From Terriglobia bacterium (lineage in GTDB: Bacteria; Acidobacteriota; Terriglobia; Bryobacterales; Bryobacteraceae): 36,099 nucleotides of DNA. The notes below the pieces were generated by a model. The model did not search any database, was not told where the DNA came from, and saw only the letters and a list, made by a program, of their open reading frames with translations. Below are positions 2,267 through 27,360 of this stretch, piece by piece. Each line of letters begins with the position of its first letter. The first letter of the stretch is position 1. Both the position numbers and the translations under genes were made by a program. The stretch covers positions 1 through 36,099 of the forward strand of contig RGPS01000037.1 in NCBI GenBank assembly GCA_010084195.1, in the 5' to 3' direction.

Positions 2267-4109
2267 AGGCATCCCGGCGCTGGTTGCGCTCGCCGCCGGT
2301 TCCGTTGCCCTCGCGCTCGCCCTCTCCTGGACCGGACTCGGTCACCAGTTCGATAACTACGCCTACGATTTCCTGTTTCGGCTCGAACAGCCGGCCCCCT
2401 GGCAGCCAGGCTCCATCATCCTCGCCATCGACGAAGCCACCATGGCGAAATACGGCGGCAACAACGGCATCCGCGGAGCCCTCGCCGCCGGCCTTCGCCA
2501 CATCTCCGTCGCCCGCCCAGCCGCTGTCGCAGTCGATATCATCCTCAACGACGCCACCACCGAAGAGGCCGACGCCCAACTGGAACTGGCCTTCGCCGAA
2601 ACCCGCCGCCTCGTTCTCGCCTCTTATCTCCTTCGCGACGGCACCTGGTCCGACCCCCTCCCGCGCTTCCGCGCCCATGCCACCTCGGTCGGCCATGTCC
2701 ACGCCAACTTCGACAAATTCGATTCCGTCTATCGCGATGCCCCCCTCATGAAGGTCAGCGGCCACACCCGGCGCTGGGCCCTCCCCCTCGAAGCCTTCCG
2801 CGTCTCCCTGAAAGCCGAGATCCTCGAATCGCCCGAGGAACTCATCATCGGAGGCATCCGCGTGCCCTCCTCCCTCCACGACGAATTCACCGATGGCCGT
2901 ACCCTCCGCATTCGCTACCCCCCCGTAGCCATGGACGGGATCCCTCGCATCTCCGTCGCTGAACTGGATAAAGCCGAATTGGACTCGAACCGCGCCCTCG
3001 CCGCTCGTTTTTCGGGCAAAGTCGTCTTCGCCGGCGTTACCGCCCAGGGCATGGGTGATCGCTGGGTCACGCCCTACTCCAACGCCCGCGACATGCCCGG
3101 CATCGAGATGAATGCCAGCGTCTACGAAACCCTCGCCCAGCAGCGCTTCCTGGTGGACGCCTCCTGGGTCACTGTCATTGCCGGTTGCCTCGCACTTTCC
3201 GGTCTGGCTGGCATCATCTTCTACCTCGGTTCCGGCTGGCTCGCGAACCTCGGGGCAGTTGGGGTCGTCCTGATCTCTCAGGTCATCCCGGCCTTTGCGT
3301 TCTCCCAATCGCTCGTCTGGGCCTGGCTTCCCGGCACCCTGTCTGCACTCTTCGGAGTCGCCTCCGCCGCCACCTGGCGCCACTTCGTCGTCCGCCGCGA
3401 TCTCGACCGCGCCGAGCACGAACGCAGCCGCTACCAGAAGGCCATGCAGTTCGTCACCCACGAGATGAAGACGCCCCTCACCGCCATCCAGGGCTCCAGC
3501 GAACTTCTCGGCCGTTATGCGCAAATGCCCGAAGCCAAACGCAAGCAGATGGCCGATCTCATCAACAACGAATCCAAACGCCTCGCCAAAATGATCGAGA
3601 CCTTCCTCTCCGCCGAACGCCTCTCCGCCGGCGAGATGGAGATGAAGCAGGAACGCTTCTCGCTCCCCGACCTCATCGAAGCCTGCACCCTCCGAGCCCG
3701 CGTCTACGCCGAGCGCAAACAGATCATCATCGACGTCGGGGCTATCCCCCCCCGCGACCTCACCGGCGACCGCGAACTCATGGAGTACGCAATCTACAAC
3801 CTGATGACCAATGCCGTCAAATACTCCCCGCCCGCGACAACAGTACGGGTCTTCGGCGAAGATGAAAGAGGTGACCGTGTTCGCTTGTCCATTCAGGACG
3901 AGGGAATCGGCATGGATAAAAAGGAGCTGACTAAAATTTTCGAGAAGTTCTACCGCACCAAACGCGCCGAACAATCCGGCGAACAAGGCACCGGTATCGG
4001 ACTCTCGATTGTAGAGCAGATCGTCACCTCACACGGGGGCGTTATTGAAGTGGAATCCGAGCCCGGCAAAGGCTCGCGCTTCAGCCTGCTCCTGAAACGG
4101 GCCAAATGA
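2244..4109 (+). CDS. CHASE2-domain sensor histidine kinase
   Basis: A 621-residue membrane sensor kinase. An N-terminal transmembrane helix precedes an extracellular CHASE2 sensory domain (about residues 25-290, with IILAIDEATMAKYGG typical of CHASE2). Two to three further membrane helices (about 300-375) lead into the cytoplasmic kinase. The HisKA phospho-acceptor box is FVTHEMKTPLTAIQGSSELL; the ATPase domain shows the N box NLMTNAVKYS, the G1 box DEGIGM and the G2 box GTGIGLSIVEQIV. The GTG start at 2244 lies inside the 3' end of the peptidase gene, and the stop overlaps the response-regulator start as ATGA, so translation is probably coupled. CHASE2 ligands are generally unknown. The cognate regulator is almost certainly the next gene. 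Confidence 0.93.
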   Translation: MRWRGKNKGIPALVALAAGSVALALALSWTGLGHQFDNYAYDFLFRLEQPAPWQPGSIILAIDEATMAKYGGNNGIRGALAAGLRHISVARPAAVAVDIILNDATTEEADAQLELAFAETRRLVLASYLLRDGTWSDPLPRFRAHATSVGHVHANFDKFDSVYRDAPLMKVSGHTRRWALPLEAFRVSLKAEILESPEELIIGGIRVPSSLHDEFTDGRTLRIRYPPVAMDGIPRISVAELDKAELDSNRALAARFSGKVVFAGVTAQGMGDRWVTPYSNARDMPGIEMNASVYETLAQQRFLVDASWVTVIAGCLALSGLAGIIFYLGSGWLANLGAVGVVLISQVIPAFAFSQSLVWAWLPGTLSALFGVASAATWRHFVVRRDLDRAEHERSRYQKAMQFVTHEMKTPLTAIQGSSELLGRYAQMPEAKRKQMADLINNESKRLAKMIETFLSAERLSAGEMEMKQERFSLPDLIEACTLRARVYAERKQIIIDVGAIPPRDLTGDRELMEYAIYNLMTNAVKYSPPATTVRVFGEDERGDRVRLSIQDEGIGMDKKELTKIFEKFYRTKRAEQSGEQGTGIGLSIVEQIVTSHGGVIEVESEPGKGSRFSLLLKRAK

Positions 4110-18734: not shown

Positions 18735-18887
18735 TCACTCTTTCTGACTTTGCCAATCTTCAGCTGGCCAATCCGCATCCAGTGACGCCAATTGTGCCAA
18801 GTGTAGAGATTCGTCCAGTTCCGAAGCCTCATGCGCATAGACCTTGTTCAGTTGTTCCGTAGTAAAGCTGCTGGCCTGTTCCGTCAT
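18735..18887 (-). CDS. 50-residue ORF coupled to the HEPN gene, possible antitoxin
   Basis: ATG 18887 directly follows the HEPN stop (TGA-ATG), so translation is probably coupled. The 50-residue product (MTEQASSFTTEQLNKVYAHE through SLDADWPAEDWQSQKE) is acidic and largely helical, with a Trp-containing acidic tail. It resembles the size and style of small antitoxins but matches no family I can name. Between its stop and the toxin remnant at 18596 (about 140 bases) I see no further convincing gene. Confidence 0.5.
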   Translation of the reverse strand: MTEQASSFTTEQLNKVYAHEASELDESLHLAQLASLDADWPAEDWQSQKE

Positions 18888-19295
18888 TCACACGAATCCC
18901 GAACTCATCGGCAACCGCCGCCGAACTGCTCCAATCCCCACTGCCAGCTTCAAACCTTCCGCCACCTCCACCGCATCCGGCTCATACGGAGCCCCCGGAT
19001 ACCGGAACAACCACACATAACGAGTCAGCGCCGTAGTCGCCGCCTGGATCTCCACCTCAATCGAAGGGTCAATCGCTGCGCATTCCAGCGCCAGTTCCCG
19101 CAGCTCATGCGTCTTGCGAAATGCCGTCTGATGGTACGTCAGCAGACCCTTCAGAAACTTCTCAGCCGCCTGCTGGCAGTGATACAGCGCCTCGGCCGGC
19201 AGTTCCACCGAACAAAGCTCCGCTGCCCGCAGATCGCGCCGCGCATGGACCAGCCACTTGCCCGTTTCATCAAGCAGCCACTGCGTCGGCGTCAT
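18888..19295 (-). CDS. HEPN domain protein (HEPN/MNT toxin-antitoxin type)
   Basis: A 135-residue HEPN-domain protein; ATG 19295 is preferred over the upstream GTG 19364 because family similarity starts at WLLDETGKWLVHARRDLRAA. The helical core CQQAAEKFLKGLLTYHQ, FRKTHELRELALEC and the C-terminal helix RYVWLFRYPG are characteristic of the subfamily that pairs with minimal nucleotidyltransferases. In such modules HEPN is the RNase toxin or a regulatory subunit. Its start overlaps the end of the MNT-like frame by 26 bases, as in intact pairs, but the MNT gene is truncated. Confidence 0.8.
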   Translation of the reverse strand: MTPTQWLLDETGKWLVHARRDLRAAELCSVELPAEALYHCQQAAEKFLKGLLTYHQTAFRKTHELRELALECAAIDPSIEVEIQAATTALTRYVWLFRYPGAPYEPDAVEVAEGLKLAVGIGAVRRRLPMSSGFV

Positions 19296-19401
19296 AAAGC
19301 AACTTTCCTTCCCGGCACACAACCGCTGGCAGCGACGCCACCACATGCGCTGCCCGACCCTCAAAGTCGCTCACCCGCCACGGCACCACATCCGCCGGCC
19401 A
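19270..19401 (-). pseudogene. 3' remnant of the MNT nucleotidyltransferase partner of HEPN
   Basis: The last ~43 codons read WPADVVPWRVSDFEGRAAHV, then VASLPAVVCREGKLLYD, which fits the C-terminal end of minimal nucleotidyltransferases (a DVV strand, a helix with EF/DF, and a terminal EGxxLY). The catalytic GSxxxG...DxD part that should precede it is missing; upstream of ~19401 the frame is open but unrelated, and the opposite strand there carries the tail of another gene. The MNT gene therefore lost its 5' part through a rearrangement. Confidence 0.6.
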
Positions 19402-19404
19402 CGA

Positions 19405-19626
19405 GAAGAAGCCGAACTCTTCCTCTCCCTGCAGTTGATGAAGGCCGAAAAAATCGACTACACGCAGCCTGTCCAGGTCAATGGCTTCGTTTTTCCAACC
19501 CCGCAAATTCTCGCCGGTATCGTCAGGCAACAGACCCTCGCCGAAGCCCGCTGGTACAAAGCCAACAACTGGGATCGCACCAAACGGCCCCCGTTCGCGC
19601 TCCTCACCTTCCCGAAAGCGGCCTGA
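19405..19626 (+). pseudogene. 3' fragment of an unidentified gene
   Basis: In the plus frame from about 19405 to TGA 19626 the translation (EEAELFLSLQLMKAEKIDYT, VNGFVFPTPQILAGIVRQQT, WYKANNWDRTKRPPFALL) has the composition of genuine protein rather than an antisense shadow. It begins abruptly at the point where MNT similarity on the other strand ends. ATG 19438 would give 62 residues but has no SD. I do not recognise the family. It is most likely the tail of a gene cut by the same rearrangement that removed the 5' part of the MNT gene. Confidence 0.4.
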
Positions 19627-19637
19627 ACCCGGTGCTT

Positions 19638-21605
19638 CTACTTACCGTCGGTCGCCAAAACTTCCCACTTCTCCCCGAAGAACCCGGCCAGTGCGACCTT
19701 ACCAGGCCACCGCTTATCCGCCGGCACCGAAATATCGATCACCGCGTAATCGGGCAACTCCGCCACCTGCCACGAATTGCTCCCGTTCGCCGACTCCCGG
19801 AACGTGAAACCACTGTTGATCACAACGTATTTCGCCGGATTCAAAGGATTCGGATACACCAGCACCGGAACGTTCGTCGCTCCCGCAAACTTCTTGCCAC
19901 CCACCGTCACGCCCTCGCGCGTCCACTGCACCGGCAGCTTATCGGCAAGCCGAGCCAGCACTTTATTGCTCGAAGGATCACCCCAAAGCACCAGATTGCT
20001 ACTCGCGATATCCGCATCCGTAATAGCCGAATCATCCTTCACCGGAGTGTCGCCCCGGAACAGCCCGCGCCACTGCGAAATCGCCCGCGCCTGCTCCCCC
20101 GCAACCCACTTACCAACCTCGGCATTCATCGGAGTTCCGGTCGGCCGAACCATCACAAACCGGTCCAGAAAAGCATCGTCAATCGGACCCTGCAGACCGT
20201 GCCTCTTCGCCAGTCCGCTCACCTCACCGACCTCCCATTTACCCGCAGCCTTGCGCAGGCGCACCGTCCACGAACCATCGCTCAACGCCCCCGGCACCAC
20301 CACGCTCTGCCCATCAATCGCGATCGTGACCTTCGAAGCAACACTCAGCAAATTCGCCGCCGCGCCCATCTCGAAACTCACCGCCGAGGTATTGACAGTC
20401 TTCACTTGCACCGTGTGGTCGCTCGAAACCGAAGCTTCCACGCGAGCCCGTTCCCAGTGCTTCTCCAAACCATCCACAACCACCCAGCGCATCCGGTTGT
20501 ACTTCAGCGTCCACGTCGTAAACTTCACCGTTCGCGGCCACTCGTCCCGACCCCGCGCCGCAATCGCATCAAGCTTTTCGGAAAGCTGGACCTTCGAAAG
20601 CGGTGTGTACGCATGCCCGATATTCAGGCCCCAAACCCTCTGCAGAGTCAGCCCCTCGGCCTCCATATTGCGAGCCATAATGTCCGCCGCCTGCCTCTGT
20701 GGGTCCTGGTCACCGTTGTAAGCCACCACCGGCAGATTGAAGAAATTCGCCGCATAATCGGTCGCGTTGGTCAGGTGATACAGCTTCTCCTCCCACCATG
20801 TCGGCTGATACTTCGCGTTCTTCTGATACTCCAGCGTCTCCGCGAAACCGGCCCCTGGTGCCGCCGCCGCGAACTGCGATCCCGAATGCGCCGCAATATG
20901 CCAAACCGACGCGCCACCCATGCTGAAGCCACGCAGCAGAACCCGGTTCGGGTCCACACTGTACTGCTTCTTCACCGCGTCCAGGGCCTCAAAAAAATCC
21001 ACCTCGCCCGCAAACTTGCTCGCATTGCAGTACCGTCCATACAGGTGCAGGACAATCGTGTCCGTCGGCTGAAACTCACCGGCGTTCTGCATCCGGTCAT
21101 AAACGAAATCCACCTCGTTCAGAGTCTCGCTGCGTCCGTGAAACCACGTATCCACGCGCCAGCGATGCGGCTTCTCCGGCCCAAGCGTCGGCGGCAACAC
21201 CAGACCATACGGCTGCACGCTGCCATCAATCTTCGATACATACGCACGTACCGTCAAACCAGCCTGATGCGTCCACGGAGCCTGGCCCTTTGCCAGCAAA
21301 TCCGCCCGCTCACTGCCGATCCGCAGCAGTTCCTTGGCCCGGAAAATCTGCTCTGGCCGGAAGAACTCGTTCCCCTCCAAAGCGAACCGGACGGCCTTAT
21401 GAAAGATCTCCGCATCCGGGTAGAGCGCATGGCCCTTCACCCTGTCCAGCGCAACCCGCAGACGGTCCAGACCCGTCCGCAGAGCCTTCTGGTCCGCCTC
21501 CGGAACTACAATTCCGGGCGCAGGCAACGGCTTGTTATTCGCCTGCGGAAACAACGCCGGAGCCAAGACTCCAGCCAACGAGAGAGCAACGATAAATGGA
21601 CGCAT
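19638..21605 (-). CDS. secreted alpha/beta hydrolase, prolyl oligopeptidase-type esterase
   Basis: A 655-residue exported hydrolase with signal peptide MRPFIVALSLAGVLAPALF. The N-terminal ~150 residues are helical. The alpha/beta-hydrolase domain carries the nucleophile elbow GFSMGGASVWHIA, a probable acid in YNGDQDPQ and the His in NIGHAYTP. A C-terminal beta-rich half (~370-655) includes VTIAIDGQSVVVPG and NPAKYVVINSGFTFRES, where an ordered Asn-Ser-Gly strand recalls peptidase/esterase accessory domains. It probably cleaves ester or peptide bonds in external polymers. It is the second gene of a likely operon with the sulfatase (12 bases between them). Confidence 0.83.
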   Translation of the reverse strand: MRPFIVALSLAGVLAPALFPQANNKPLPAPGIVVPEADQKALRTGLDRLRVALDRVKGHALYPDAEIFHKAVRFALEGNEFFRPEQIFRAKELLRIGSERADLLAKGQAPWTHQAGLTVRAYVSKIDGSVQPYGLVLPPTLGPEKPHRWRVDTWFHGRSETLNEVDFVYDRMQNAGEFQPTDTIVLHLYGRYCNASKFAGEVDFFEALDAVKKQYSVDPNRVLLRGFSMGGASVWHIAAHSGSQFAAAAPGAGFAETLEYQKNAKYQPTWWEEKLYHLTNATDYAANFFNLPVVAYNGDQDPQRQAADIMARNMEAEGLTLQRVWGLNIGHAYTPLSKVQLSEKLDAIAARGRDEWPRTVKFTTWTLKYNRMRWVVVDGLEKHWERARVEASVSSDHTVQVKTVNTSAVSFEMGAAANLLSVASKVTIAIDGQSVVVPGALSDGSWTVRLRKAAGKWEVGEVSGLAKRHGLQGPIDDAFLDRFVMVRPTGTPMNAEVGKWVAGEQARAISQWRGLFRGDTPVKDDSAITDADIASSNLVLWGDPSSNKVLARLADKLPVQWTREGVTVGGKKFAGATNVPVLVYPNPLNPAKYVVINSGFTFRESANGSNSWQVAELPDYAVIDISVPADKRWPGKVALAGFFGEKWEVLATDGK

Positions 21606-21617
21606 GTCGAACCAACA

Positions 21618-23384
<1,767 letters not shown>

Positions 23385-23430
23385 CTAGCCAGTCTACAGA
23401 ACCCGGCCCGCCCCTCCGCAACCGCCGTAC

Positions 23431-23456
23431 CGAACCGCGACCGTGAGGGAGCGGCC
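23431..23456. repeat. half-copy of a putative intergenic palindromic repeat
   Basis: CGAACCGCGACCGTGAGGGA followed by GCGGCC lies in the 87-base gap between glcD and the sulfatase. I recall this sequence (often mistranslated as a NRDREGA peptide) as one arm of a repeat frequent between genes in acidobacteria and relatives. The second arm is not found nearby. This rests on memory, not on a search. Confidence 0.35.
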
Positions 23457-23471
23457 AACCCTCAAAACCGC

Positions 23472-24908
23472 CTAAATCGCGGTGCGTCTCGTGAACGGAG
23501 CCTGCCGAATTTCCAGGCACCCTTTGCCCGTCGGCAGAACCTTGCCCGGATTCAGCCGCCCCGACGGATCGAACAAAGTCTTGAATCGCCCAATATAATC
23601 CAGCGTTTCCGGGCGAAACAACTTCGCCATCAACTCGTTCTTTTCCATGCCCACACCATGCTCGCCGGTGATCGAACCGCCCACCGAAATGCAGTAACTC
23701 AGAATCGCCTCTCCCGCATTCTTCGCCCGTTCCAGTTCTTCCGGAATCCGCGCATTGAACAAAATGATCGGGTGCATGTTGCCATCGCCCGCATGGAAAA
23801 TATTGCTGATGCTCAGGTTGTACTTCTTTGCCACTTCACCGATGTAGCGAAGAGTCGGAGCGATCTGCGTGCGCGGCACCACGCCATCCTGCACGTAATA
23901 CGACGAACTCACCCGACCCACCGCGCCGAACGCGTTCTTGCGGCCCTTCCACAACAGGTCACGCTCCTCCGCCGTCTTCGCCACCCGGAACTCGCGAGCC
24001 CCGCACTGCTCACAGACCTGTCGTATCTGTTCGGTCTGCTCTTCCACCGCCTCAATAAGACCTTCCAGCTCAATCAACAGAACCGCCGCTGCATCCATCG
24101 GATAGCCCGCATGCGTGGCTTCTTCAACCATCCGCAGCATCTCGCCATCCAGCATTTCCACCGCAACCGGCGTAATCGCCCGCGCCGTAATCTGCGCCAC
24201 GGTGTCGGCGCAATCGGAAGCCGAGTTGTAGATCGCCAGAATGGTCTTGATCTTCTCCGGCTGCCGCATCAGGCGAACGATGACTTTGGTGACCAGCACC
24301 ATCGTGCCTTCCGAACCCGTCAGCAGGCCGACCAGGTCGTACCCCGGCGAATCCAGTTCCTTGCCGCCGGTTTCATGGACGGTCCCATCCGGCAGCACGA
24401 ATTCCAGCCCCAGAACGTGGTTCGTCGTCACGCCGTACGCCAGCGTGTGCGGCCCGCCGGCGTTCTCCGATACATTCCCGCCGATGGTGCACGCCCGCTG
24501 GCTCGAAGGGTCGGGGGCGTAGAAATACCCCATATCCTGCACGGCCAGCGAGATGTCCAGATTCACCACGCCCGGCTGAACCACCATGCGTTCGTTCTCG
24601 AGATCGATCTCCAGAATCCGGTTCATGCGCGAGAAGCCGATGGTCACGCCCCCCATTCGGGGAATCGCGCCCCCGCTCAGGCCCGTGCCTGCGCCGCGGC
24701 CCACAATTGGAATCCCGGCCTCGGCAGTGGCCTTGACGATCTCCGAAACCTGCTCCGTGGTCTCCGGGAACACCACCATCTCGGGCCGCGCCTTATCGAC
24801 GCTGCCATCGTATTCGTACAGGAGCAGGTCTTCCGGCTTATCCAGGTAGCCCTTCGGACCAACGATACCGATCAGTTTCTGTTTGATTGCAGGCGTCAAT
24901 GTCGACAT
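23472..24908 (-). CDS. glcD: FAD-linked oxidase, glycolate oxidase subunit GlcD type
   Basis: A 478-residue flavoprotein of the GlcD/D-lactate dehydrogenase family that oxidises 2-hydroxy acids. The FAD_binding_4 domain is complete: VFPETTEQVSEIV, GRGAGTGLSGGAIP and TIGGNVSENAGGPHTLAYG. The C-terminal FAD-oxidase domain shows HAGDGNMHP, TGEHGVGMEKN and LNPGKVLP. In the classical complex GlcD works with GlcE and GlcF, but neither lies in this window. The gene starts 6 bases after the tlpA stop, so the two are probably co-transcribed. Its 3' end abuts the half-palindromic repeat. Confidence 0.92.
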   Translation of the reverse strand: MSTLTPAIKQKLIGIVGPKGYLDKPEDLLLYEYDGSVDKARPEMVVFPETTEQVSEIVKATAEAGIPIVGRGAGTGLSGGAIPRMGGVTIGFSRMNRILEIDLENERMVVQPGVVNLDISLAVQDMGYFYAPDPSSQRACTIGGNVSENAGGPHTLAYGVTTNHVLGLEFVLPDGTVHETGGKELDSPGYDLVGLLTGSEGTMVLVTKVIVRLMRQPEKIKTILAIYNSASDCADTVAQITARAITPVAVEMLDGEMLRMVEEATHAGYPMDAAAVLLIELEGLIEAVEEQTEQIRQVCEQCGAREFRVAKTAEERDLLWKGRKNAFGAVGRVSSSYYVQDGVVPRTQIAPTLRYIGEVAKKYNLSISNIFHAGDGNMHPIILFNARIPEELERAKNAGEAILSYCISVGGSITGEHGVGMEKNELMAKLFRPETLDYIGRFKTLFDPSGRLNPGKVLPTGKGCLEIRQAPFTRRTAI

Positions 24909-24914
24909 GTTGAC

Positions 24915-25427
24915 CTAGAGCAGCGACGAAATGTGTTGCAGCATCTGCGGCGAGTTCCAGGGCTGCACCGAGATGTACTTCTCAATCACTTTGCCGTTCC
25001 GGTCAATCAGATAGCTCTCCGGATACTGGATCGTCCCGTACTTCGTGTTGATCGTCTGTTCCGGGTCCCGCGCAGTCGGGTAGGCGAGAGGGTTCTTTTC
25101 GAGGAACTTCTTGTAGATCTCGGGATCCTTGTCCACGCTGACTCCCAGGATCACCAGACCCTTCGGGCCCAGTTCACGAGCCATGTCGTTCAGCCCCGGA
25201 ATCTCTTCAATGCAGGGCGGGCACCAGGTGGCCCAGAAGTTCAACAACAGCAGCTTGCCCCCAAAGTTATCTTTTGTGACAGCCTTCCCGGCGTCAGTGG
25301 TAATGCTGAAATCGGGGGCAGAATCCCCGGCGTTCACAATCGTCTCGTGGAGCGACGAGTAGAGCGCGAAGCAAAAGAGGGCAACTGATGCCAGCAGGGC
25401 GGTGTGGAGTATACGGTCCGGTTTCAT
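24915..25427 (-). CDS. TlpA/ResA-like periplasmic thioredoxin
   Basis: A 170-residue protein with an N-terminal membrane anchor or signal (LHTALLASVALFCFALYSSL) and an AhpC/TSA-Redoxin fold of TlpA type. The active site is WCPPC in LLNFWATWCPPCIEEIPGLN; the cis-Pro loop is YPESYLIDRNGKV. Such proteins reduce disulphides outside the cytoplasm, for example in cytochrome c maturation. It is the promoter-proximal gene of the tlpA-glcD pair and diverges from the pterin operon, with 63 bases between the chosen start codons. Confidence 0.9.
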   Translation of the reverse strand: MKPDRILHTALLASVALFCFALYSSLHETIVNAGDSAPDFSITTDAGKAVTKDNFGGKLLLLNFWATWCPPCIEEIPGLNDMARELGPKGLVILGVSVDKDPEIYKKFLEKNPLAYPTARDPEQTINTKYGTIQYPESYLIDRNGKVIEKYISVQPWNSPQMLQHISSLL

Positions 25428-25490
25428 GCGCGTTATCTATAATTCTAACGGAGCCTCGTGGGCGTTTCTTCCCACAACATTTTCAACCAC

Positions 25491-25907
25491 ATGATTATTT
25501 CCAAAAAAGTCGAATTCTCGGCTTCCCACATTTGCCGGTCGCCCCAACTCAGCGACGAAGAAAACCTGCGCGTCTATGGCCTGGCGGCGAACCCCAACAG
25601 CCACGGTCACAACTATATCGTTGAGGTTGCTATCGAAGGCGACCCCGACCCAATCACCGGCATGATCCTCGATCTGAAGCACCTCAAGGACATCCTCGAA
25701 GACCGCATCCTCAAGGTTTACGACCACCGCCTTCTCAACGTGGAAGTCGATTCTTTCGCCGATAAGGTTCCGACGGTCGAGAACATGGCCATCGACATGT
25801 GGAACCGCATCGAAGCCCATATCGACGCCACCGGACGCGCCCGTCTGTTCTCGGTGCGGGTCCACGAGACCAATGAGCTGTTTGTGGAGTACCGGGGGAA
25901 AGCATGA
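25491..25907 (+). CDS. PTPS/QueD paralogue 1: lacks the catalytic Cys, keeps Asp-His
   Basis: A 138-residue protein of the 6-pyruvoyltetrahydropterin synthase/QueD family. The zinc histidines are present (VEFSASH and NSHGHNY), as is the Glu region VHETNELFVEY. The catalytic Asp-His pair is in VYDHRLLN. The catalytic Cys, normally in [13 protein letters not shown], is missing: the segment reads VYGLAANPNSHGHNY. ATG 25491 gives the family N-terminus (MIISKKVEFSA) and leaves room for a promoter. GTG 25458 with GGAG just upstream would add 11 residues and is an alternative. The gene overlaps the next one as ATGA. With paralogue 2 and folE it forms a pterin operon. Confidence 0.9.
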   Translation: MIISKKVEFSASHICRSPQLSDEENLRVYGLAANPNSHGHNYIVEVAIEGDPDPITGMILDLKHLKDILEDRILKVYDHRLLNVEVDSFADKVPTVENMAIDMWNRIEAHIDATGRARLFSVRVHETNELFVEYRGKA

Positions 25908-26329
25908 CCGTCCACCTCAGCCGACGCTACGTGTTTTTTGCCGCGCACCGCCTGCACGCCCCCACGCTTTCCGACGCTGAAAATCAGGCGCTCTACGGTA
26001 AGTGCAACAATCCAAACGGCCATGGACATAACTATGAGGTGGAAGTTACGGTCGGAGGCCAGGTGAACCCTGTCACCGGCCGCGCCGTGGATCTCCACCT
26101 GCTGGATGAACTCTGTGAGCGACAGATTCTCGCCCCGTTCCGCTACCGGAACCTGAACACGGAAGTCGAAGAATTTCGCCACGGCAATCCGACCACCGAA
26201 AATCTCGCTACTGTGGTAGATGTCCGCCTGCGGAGTGTTTGGCTCAACTGGTTTCCGGCAGGCGGACCGAAACTGGAAAAGATCCGCATCTGGGAAACTG
26301 ACCGCAACATCTGTGAGGTGTGCCCATGA
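25904..26329 (+). CDS. PTPS/QueD paralogue 2: keeps the catalytic Cys, lacks Asp-His
   Basis: A 141-residue PTPS-family protein. Zinc histidines are in YVFFAAH and [10 protein letters not shown], and the catalytic Cys is present in [15 protein letters not shown]. The Asp-His pair that should precede RNLN is replaced: PFRYRNLN instead of xxDHRNLN. The binding Glu is in IRIWETDRN. The protein ends with a CxxC (NICEVCP). SD GGGGGAAA precedes ATG 25904, which overlaps the stop of paralogue 1; its own stop overlaps the folE start as ATGA. The missing residues are exactly those retained by paralogue 1, suggesting that the two subunits assemble into one active enzyme (inference). Confidence 0.88.
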
Positions 26330-26928
26330 ATCGCAAACGTGCAGAAGTCAAAATTCTCGAGCCGAAAGAGGCCGATAAGCCCATAGCCCCGTTTATCACG
26401 GGTATGCTCGACGCAATCGGTGAAGACCCGAATCGCGACGGCCTTCGGCAGACCCCTTTTCGCGTCGAGAAAGCCCTGCGGTTCCTCACCAGCGGCTACC
26501 AGACCGATATCGCCAAAATCGTCAACAAGGCCATCTTCGAGGTCACGTACGACGAGATGGTGATCGTGAAGGACATCGAGTTCTTCAGCATGTGCGAACA
26601 CCACATGTTGCCTTTCTACGGCAAAATGCACGTGGCATATCTGGCGAAAAATAAAGTGATCGGGCTGTCGAAACTGCCCCGGATCGTAAATGCCTTCGCC
26701 CGCCGTCTGCAGATTCAGGAACGGCTCACGCAGCAGGTTGCCCAGTGCATTCAGGACCACCTGGACCCGCGCGGCGTCGGCGTCGTCGTCGAAGCCCAGC
26801 ACTTCTGCATGATGATGCGTGGCGTGGAAAAGCAGCAGTCGTCCACCGTCACCAGTGCCATGCTGGGGGCCTTCCGCGACAATAAAGAAACTCGCGACGA
26901 ATTTCTGGCCCTGATTCGGAAGAGCTGA
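26326..26928 (+). CDS. folE: GTP cyclohydrolase I
   Basis: A 200-residue FolE-type enzyme that converts GTP to 7,8-dihydroneopterin triphosphate, the substrate of PTPS/QueD enzymes and the entry to folate and deazapurine synthesis. Zinc ligands are visible in [14 protein letters not shown] and in [11 protein letters not shown]; the [20 protein letters not shown] and [12 protein letters not shown] blocks are intact. ATG 26326 overlaps the preceding stop (ATGA) with a GTGAGGTG stretch upstream; GTG 26320 is a less likely start. The overlap of all three genes indicates one transcript and coupled translation. Its stop touches the stop of the convergent gene. Confidence 0.96.
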
Positions 26929-27360
26929 TCAGTCTTTTGGTCGCGGCGTCAGAATGCTCAGCTTCATCGGCGTCTTGCCCGCATCCACCTTGGCTATTCG
27001 CGTCGTGAACGTTGCTGAAGCTGCCGGCGTAATCACCCGCACCGCATGTTCCCGGGAGGAATCGGTTCCCGAAAGCACGAATACATGGGGCGTCGGCACA
27101 AAGATTTCCAGAACGTGGATCGTCTCGGTACCCGTATAGAACTCCACCCGAAGTTCCTGATCTTCCCGCAGGCCTCTTTGCATTCCCTGGAGCTGGCCAA
27201 GAATAATCGGCCCGATCTCAACCGGAGCCGCAGCCGGTTTTGCCGGGTTCGCCTCCGCCGCTTTTGTGGGTTCCGGCCCGACCAGGCTACCGAGGACGTT
27301 CCGTTTGGTTGCCTCGATAGCTTGATCGGCCAAAACTTTACCTAAATTGCCCAGCGCCAT
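26929..27360 (-). CDS. conserved hypothetical protein with Ala/Pro-rich linker
   Basis: A 143-residue protein with no recognisable family. An N-terminal helix (ALGNLGKVLADQAIEATKRN) is followed by an AKPAAAP linker and a beta-rich domain (ELRVEFYTGTETIHVLEIFV, FVLSGTDSSREHAVRVITPA). No signal peptide is evident, so it is probably cytoplasmic. It is convergent with folE and lies 34 bases downstream of the coiled-coil membrane protein gene on the same strand, with which it may be co-transcribed. Confidence 0.65.
   Translation of the reverse strand: MALGNLGKVLADQAIEATKRNVLGSLVGPEPTKAAEANPAKPAAAPVEIGPIILGQLQGMQRGLREDQELRVEFYTGTETIHVLEIFVPTPHVFVLSGTDSSREHAVRVITPAASATFTTRIAKVDAGKTPMKLSILTPRPKD

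Follow-up and report, generated by a model that had tools for sequence, protein, structure and literature searches.

In rat 6-pyruvoyltetrahydropterin synthase (PTPS), Cys42 of one chain is said, in work attributed to Ploom in 1999, to meet Asp88 and His89 of another. According to PMC7546909, two trimers make up the PTPS hexamer and its sites lie between the monomers, and the title of Burgisser 1995 speaks of an "intersubunit catalytic triad motif". Among solved chains, rat and human PTPS (1b66/1gtq and 3i2b) were the best sequence matches of the two proteins considered here, paralogues A and B. They share with them the fold, the length, the zinc histidines, the glutamate and the principle of an intersubunit triad, but one chain there holds Cys, Asp and His, which are divided between two genes here.

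In PTPS-III a glutamate may stand beside the catalytic cysteine, and we know of no partner gene for this enzyme; PTPS paralogues of folB-less bacteria were reportedly treated by Pribat in 2009. The folate-bypass PTPS-III of Plasmodium falciparum belongs to the same family and has, like A, its catalytic cysteine replaced, by glutamate according to PMC2229834, whereas A of the window displays alanine. QueD (6-carboxytetrahydropterin synthase) is likewise a PF01242 protein, but A and B score below its NCBIfam cut-off, and identity with QueD was rejected (TIGR03367, 64.3 and 44.1 bits, respectively, against 89.25). Uricase, a tandem T-fold protein, carries two T-fold domains per chain as fused PTPS do (a weak structural match, TM about 0.4); its chemistry is different, and the halves of fused PTPS are each clear PTPS domains.

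Mutually dependent paralogues within one oligomer have precedent in other enzymes, for example trypanosomatid deoxyhypusine synthase, where, as reported in PMC3663545, an impaired and an inactive paralogue yield an active hetero-oligomer. That enzyme is unrelated, and the pattern found here suggests instead that the two copies have lost complementary parts of a single triad. To our knowledge no such dependence is known for PTPS. No split-triad PTPS was found by literature search, a weak test covering few PTPS papers and mostly without subscription journals, and a sequence search of solved chains returned no two-domain or hetero PTPS.

Gene order and residues of the two paralogues

The window, i.e. 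the whole stretch of DNA analysed (36,099 nucleotides), contains A and B in tandem, followed by folE (Table 1). Possible alternative starts are in-frame GTG at 25458 for A and GTG at 26320 for folE. Because a divergent ORF precedes A (24915-25427, minus strand) and another minus-strand ORF follows folE (26929-27360), the three genes look like one operon. The folE product leads to dihydroneopterin triphosphate, as stated in PMC5041015. A 2185-codon open frame at 18831-25388 faces several likely genes on the opposite strand and is itself probably a composition artefact.

Table 1. Coordinates of the paired PTPS genes, of folE and of the triad positions in the window
Feature	Position	Strand	Remarks
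PTPS paralogue A	25491..25907	+	138 aa from ATG; stop included
Cys15 of A	25533..25535	+	rat position 25; two residues past zinc His13
Ala32 of A	25584..25586	+	at catalytic Cys position (rat Cys42); codon GCG
Asp78-His79 of A	25722..25727	+	rat Asp88-His89; present
ATGA overlap, A stop / B start	25904..25907	+	read from sequence
PTPS paralogue B	25904..26329	+	141 aa
Cys34 of B	26003..26005	+	at catalytic Cys position; codon TGC
Arg80-Tyr81 of B	26141..26146	+	replacing Asp-His (rat 88-89)
folE, GTP cyclohydrolase I	26326..26928	+	ATG at 26326 overlaps B stop by ATGA

Both products belonged to the PTPS family according to profile PF01242 (110 bits for A and 91.6 for B; curated cut-off 22.4) and stayed below the cut-off of the 6PTHBS subfamily TIGR00039 (82.3 and 59.6 bits against 125.5). 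They were identical at 52 of 135 positions with each other and at 61 (A) and 59 (B) of 129 with rat PTPS, by alignment to which residue positions were set. The letters given in the earlier note, namely Asp-His with alanine at the Cys position in A and Cys with Arg-Tyr at the Asp-His position in B, were confirmed directly. Its statement that both copies keep the zinc histidines and the binding glutamate agreed with the rat alignment (His13, His38 and His40 in A, His15, His40 and His42 in B, and the Glu133 equivalent in each). Neither chain of the window displayed a complete Cys-Asp-His triad, A being devoid of Cys42 and B of Asp-His.

The PTPS fold was confirmed in predicted structures. The AlphaFold2 model of B (pLDDT 95.8, pTM 0.88) was closest to human PTPS (TM 0.88-0.91, 43% identity to 3i2b), and that of a natural A-B fusion (L236, the same protein as in genome G162) reached pLDDT 95.0 and pTM 0.89, so that its halves appear to be placed confidently relative to each other.

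A third PF01242 gene, with a complete triad, was present elsewhere in the same genome and may serve the folate step. In this copy (L001, G000:C625:12557-12916) the cysteine is followed by glutamate ahead of HGH (CENVHGH). Neither FolB nor PF00351, the biopterin-using aromatic amino acid hydroxylase, was found in the window's genome (G000), which is 94.4% complete, so that their absence is uncertain; PF00351 occurred in 17 out of 41 genomes of the window's family.

Half-sites within and beyond the window's family

The window's family, f1, was sampled in 150 genomes, the window's own included, and the loci of the 140 with a strong B match were read. Two of them (L176 and L226), with A incomplete in the stretch examined, were dropped, leaving 138 f1 pairs; L002 and L003, copies of the window locus, were dropped as well. 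Cys42 of A was replaced in all 138 pairs (Ala in 80, Glu in 23, Ser in 13, Asp in 11, Gly in eight and Asn in three), while Asp-His of A and the cysteine of B were kept in every one. Asp-His of B was intact in 66 pairs and changed in the other 72, into 26 different letter pairs. All three zinc histidines were encountered in 137 A copies and in all 138 B copies, and Glu133 in 136 A copies. Chance or sequencing error as the source of the pattern was rejected, since 138 of 138 pairs agree. Glutamate or aspartate at position 42 of A was not reliably linked to the loss of Asp-His in B; the raw counts hint at a link, but independent pairs gave a median p of 0.25.

The division between A and B extends past the triad columns. 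Across 128 pairs and 131 columns, Asp88 and His89 were invariant in A and ranked 81st and 75th in conservation in B, whereas Cys42 was invariant in B and ranked 101st in A. Among these pairs, 17 columns were fixed in A and loose in B, 12 of them at 66-73 and 88-100; those fixed in B and loose in A were 17, 24, 41, 42 and 121.

The operon of overlapping genes with folE claimed for the window proved to be conserved. folE adjoined the pair in 127 of the 130 f1 loci tested, the three misses running off the contig end. With each start codon chosen to lie as close as possible to a four-base A/B overlap, such an overlap could be formed in 76 of 128 f1 pairs and in 21 of 30 pairs from f2, another family within the class of f1. 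folE followed the pair in all 30 f2 loci. In f2, A was complete and the B cysteine present in 30 out of 30 pairs, and Asp-His of B was lost in eight. Wherever part of the triad was missing in the f1 and f2 pairs tallied, it was missing on the predicted side, losses being confined to opposite half-sites. The earlier note had also asked whether loss of Cys and loss of Asp-His always co-occur, and they do not: the triad of B was whole in 66 of 138 f1 pairs and 22 of 30 f2 pairs.

A few f1 genomes departed from this arrangement. L178 (genome G143), counted among the 138, had an intact A next to a B interrupted by a single in-frame stop close to its end, and in G073 (L325 1905-2211), outside the 138, A was intact and B broken by an internal deletion and a frameshift. 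The remaining ten f1 genomes also included G005, without any PF01242 match, six with only QueD-like copies (G009, G039, G046, G079, G128 and G141), G018, with a QueD-like copy and a contig-edge fragment, and G020, where A was followed by a B running into unknown bases. G009 and G128, which had no A/B pair, are 91-92% complete.

Changes were counted on a tree of A, B and FolE built without the trait columns (158 pairs, 128 of them from f1). The Asp-His state of B required a minimum of 30 changes, 25 within f1 and five within f2, and the Cys state of A a single one. Trees of A and B from two methods (168 pairs) gave 32 and 34 changes for Asp-His of B (28 and 29 in f1, four and four in f2). Asp-His of A and Cys of B did not change at all across the 158- and 168-pair trees; if both copies changed alike, none of 30 changes falling in A would have p about 2e-9. 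Such counts are blind to gain versus loss, and the changes in B are interpreted as probable losses because the replacements are varied and lone copies are complete. In a quick tree of 128 domains, from a short alignment with many forks open, f1 B grouped with f2 B (94) and f1 A with f2 A and three N-terminal halves from other phyla (83). The duplication into A and B is therefore probably older than f1 and f2.

Six Acidobacteriota loci carried both domains in one reading frame. All six N-halves were without Cys (Arg, His or Lys instead) and with Asp-His, and all six C-halves had Cys together with Gln-Gly, Ser-Gly or Asp-Cys at the Asp-His position. Glu133 was Thr or Ala in five of these N-halves; the sixth, L046, has an alignment gap there and the identical protein L279 displays Glu. 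The same split was encountered in five out of five genomes with unlinked copies. Their B-type copies kept Cys, with Asp-Arg, Glu-Arg or Asp-Cys at the Asp-His position, and their A-type copies displayed Asp-His without Cys, Tyr at zinc His48 (five of five) and no Glu at 133 (five of five; four replaced, one alignment gap). A further tandem, L128, combined an A with Leu42, Asp-His and Phe at His48 with a B bearing Cys and Arg-Gly. An A that has lost its zinc histidine and glutamate and kept Asp-His would be what is expected of a pure Asp-His donor. All 17 copies that stood alone in the stretch examined were complete, and so were both copies of four tandem pairs of family f17. In L105 the second copy had lost both halves of the triad beside a complete one; this copy (2862-3260), ~1.2 kb after the complete one, carries Tyr at the Cys position and His-Tyr at the Asp-His position.

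A second cysteine of A, overlooked in the earlier note, was found at rat position 25, two residues past zinc His23, in 134 of 138 f1 pairs. The same position was Tyr in 30 of 30 f2 A copies and Leu in 137 of 138 f1 B copies. The four f1 A copies without it (L177, L181, L333 and L335) all kept Asp-His, and B had lost Asp-His in all four. L177 and L181, with no cysteine anywhere in A, are by their residues the cleanest putative split triads of f1, and L333 and L335, without Cys at 25 and 42, have one at 24 and 20, respectively. Because Cys25 (134 of 138), the zinc ligands (137 of 138) and Glu133 (136 of 138) are kept, the pocket of A looks maintained and may be live, Cys25 serving either as a moved nucleophile or as a fourth zinc ligand.

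Fused PTPS genes of other phyla

Fused relatives were gathered by a scan whose query was fused proteins, so that fused genes rank first; the best 80 of 269 matches were kept. They came from Herpetosiphon, Binatota, Bacilli, cyanobacteria, Gemmatimonadota, Latescibacterota, Armatimonadota and others. The split pattern was that of the seven Acidobacteriota among these best 80 of 269, of which five were proteins already present in the six fused loci and L239 was new; L246 was not counted as split, as the contig end cuts its second half. folE was located within 6 kb in 52 of the 80 loci, and an ORF resembling short-chain dehydrogenases lay nearby in 59. Naming the latter sepiapterin reductase was rejected, the similarity being too generic.

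Within the same best 80 of 269, the 73 fused genes from outside Acidobacteriota all displayed at least one complete domain, and none of them carried a split like that of the window. Most (51 of 73) had an N-half with Cys and without Asp-His followed by a complete C-half; both halves were complete in 12. Nine had an N-half devoid of both Cys and Asp-His with a complete second domain, four of these nine being triple, and one lacked only the Cys of its N-half beside a complete C-half. Since every one of the 73 retains a complete domain, degeneration of a copy does not by itself make it a catalytic partner. Asp-His was lost in nine of the ten N-halves without Cys42 (related rows included); in f1, by contrast, A kept Asp-His even where B was complete (66 of 66).

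Entries L253-L303, mostly from Bacilli, kept Cys in the first half, mostly with Asp-Gly for Asp-His, and had a complete second half. In four Nostoc loci (L305, L309, L311 and L314) a single frame encoded three PTPS domains, of which the first had lost both Cys and Asp-His and had Gln in place of a zinc histidine.

Six N-halves from Gemmatimonadota and Latescibacterota possessed Cys25, three together with Cys42 and three with Ser42, a combination that fits an arrival of Cys25 before Cys42 left. Asp-His was lost in five of these six.

A possible shared active site

It is reasonably probable, judging from these residue patterns, that A and B assemble together into a mixed oligomer of the PTPS type, in which the zinc/Cys pocket of B receives Asp-His from A across a subunit interface. 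On the geometry ascribed to rat PTPS, with Cys42 meeting Asp88 and His89 of the other chain, Cys of B and Asp-His of A would make a full site at an A-B interface. The Asp-His of B itself would thereby be free to decay. The standard Cys of A would have been lost, most simply once and early in f1, and selection would since then have held Asp-His in A. The two proteins would form a physical complex, presumably in fixed ratio, with catalysis at the A-B interface. folE supplies dihydroneopterin triphosphate, the presumed substrate.

The intersubunit triad proposed in the earlier note, Cys of B with Asp-His of A, is thus favoured by the one-sided losses, by the natural fusions that join both halves and by the conserved folE operon. 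The accompanying idea that mixed interfaces are the only places with complete sites is not supported in that form: A has a near-invariant Cys25 with zinc ligands and glutamate, and such exclusivity does not seem forced everywhere since Asp-His of B is intact in 66 of 138 f1 pairs, as it is in 22 of 30 f2 pairs. The zinc ligands, Glu133 and Cys25 kept in A would be needless for a pure Asp-His donor, and the intact A beside a broken B in two f1 genomes (G073 and G143) speaks against a partnership, as does the lack of any pair in G009 and G128.

The strongest competing account has A as a complete enzyme in which Cys25, next to zinc His23, has taken over from position 42 as the nucleophile, and B as a second pocket using Asp-His of A, both pockets being live, perhaps for different steps or substrates. 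We give it a substantial but less than even chance; its A-to-B step is common to the shared site preferred above, and the odds of the two overlap. It draws on the occurrence of Cys25 in 134 of 138 Cys42-less f1 A copies, as against Tyr in all 30 Cys42-bearing f2 A copies and Leu in 137 of 138 B copies, on the conserved zinc and Glu ligands of A, and on the six Latescibacterota and Gemmatimonadota N-halves, which look as if Cys25 had come first. However, Cys25 might just as well close the site as a fourth zinc ligand, the four f1 A copies without it still keep Asp-His, and five of the six fused N-halves bearing it have lost Asp-His. A combined version, a heteromeric PTPS with A as the sole Asp-His supplier, B with the classical Cys and the nucleophile of A moved to the Cys beside a zinc ligand, is put forward only tentatively. 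One oligomer would then hold two pockets that differ in chemistry, with a dependence traceable across one phylum and losses in B repeated many times, which is conceivable though doubtful.

It is unlikely that A instead has no catalytic activity and acts as a scaffold or an allosteric partner, with B working by Cys and zinc without Asp-His. A precedent exists in the trypanosomatid deoxyhypusine synthase, activated by a dead paralogue according to PMC3663545, and 61 of the 73 fused PTPS of other phyla (best 80 of 269) combine a complete domain with a degenerate half. Nevertheless, Asp-His of A was invariant in 168 of 168 f1 and f2 pairs, and the nine out of ten Cys42-less N-halves that lost Asp-His next to a complete neighbour (related rows included, best 80 of 269) indicate that Asp-His is not retained by a subunit acting as a scaffold only.

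That A is a PTPS-III-like folate-bypass enzyme with Glu for Cys, and B an inconsequential copy in decay, is very improbable: no FolB was found in the genome of the window, four of 31 f1 genomes had one (three over the curated cut-off) and Glu occupies position 42 in 23 of 138 f1 A copies, but A of the window has alanine without an adjacent acid, neither position 41 nor position 42 is acidic in 73 of 128 f1 A copies, the Cys and zinc site of B are invariant in 138 pairs, so B is not simply decaying, and the third PTPS of the genome, with Cys then Glu, is a better candidate. For the window itself, A as PTPS-III was rejected (Leu-Ala-Ala in A and Lys-Cys-Asn in B around the catalytic Cys position).

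For annotation, copies scored singly would have one or both called inactive, which calls for caution. If the shared site of A and B holds true, these pairs would constitute a natural and many-times-replicated passage from a homo-oligomer to a dependent hetero-oligomer through loss of opposite halves of an interface site. The origin of obligate heteromers would then be directly testable, as full, half-decayed, oppositely decayed and fused pairs are all present in the sampled genomes.
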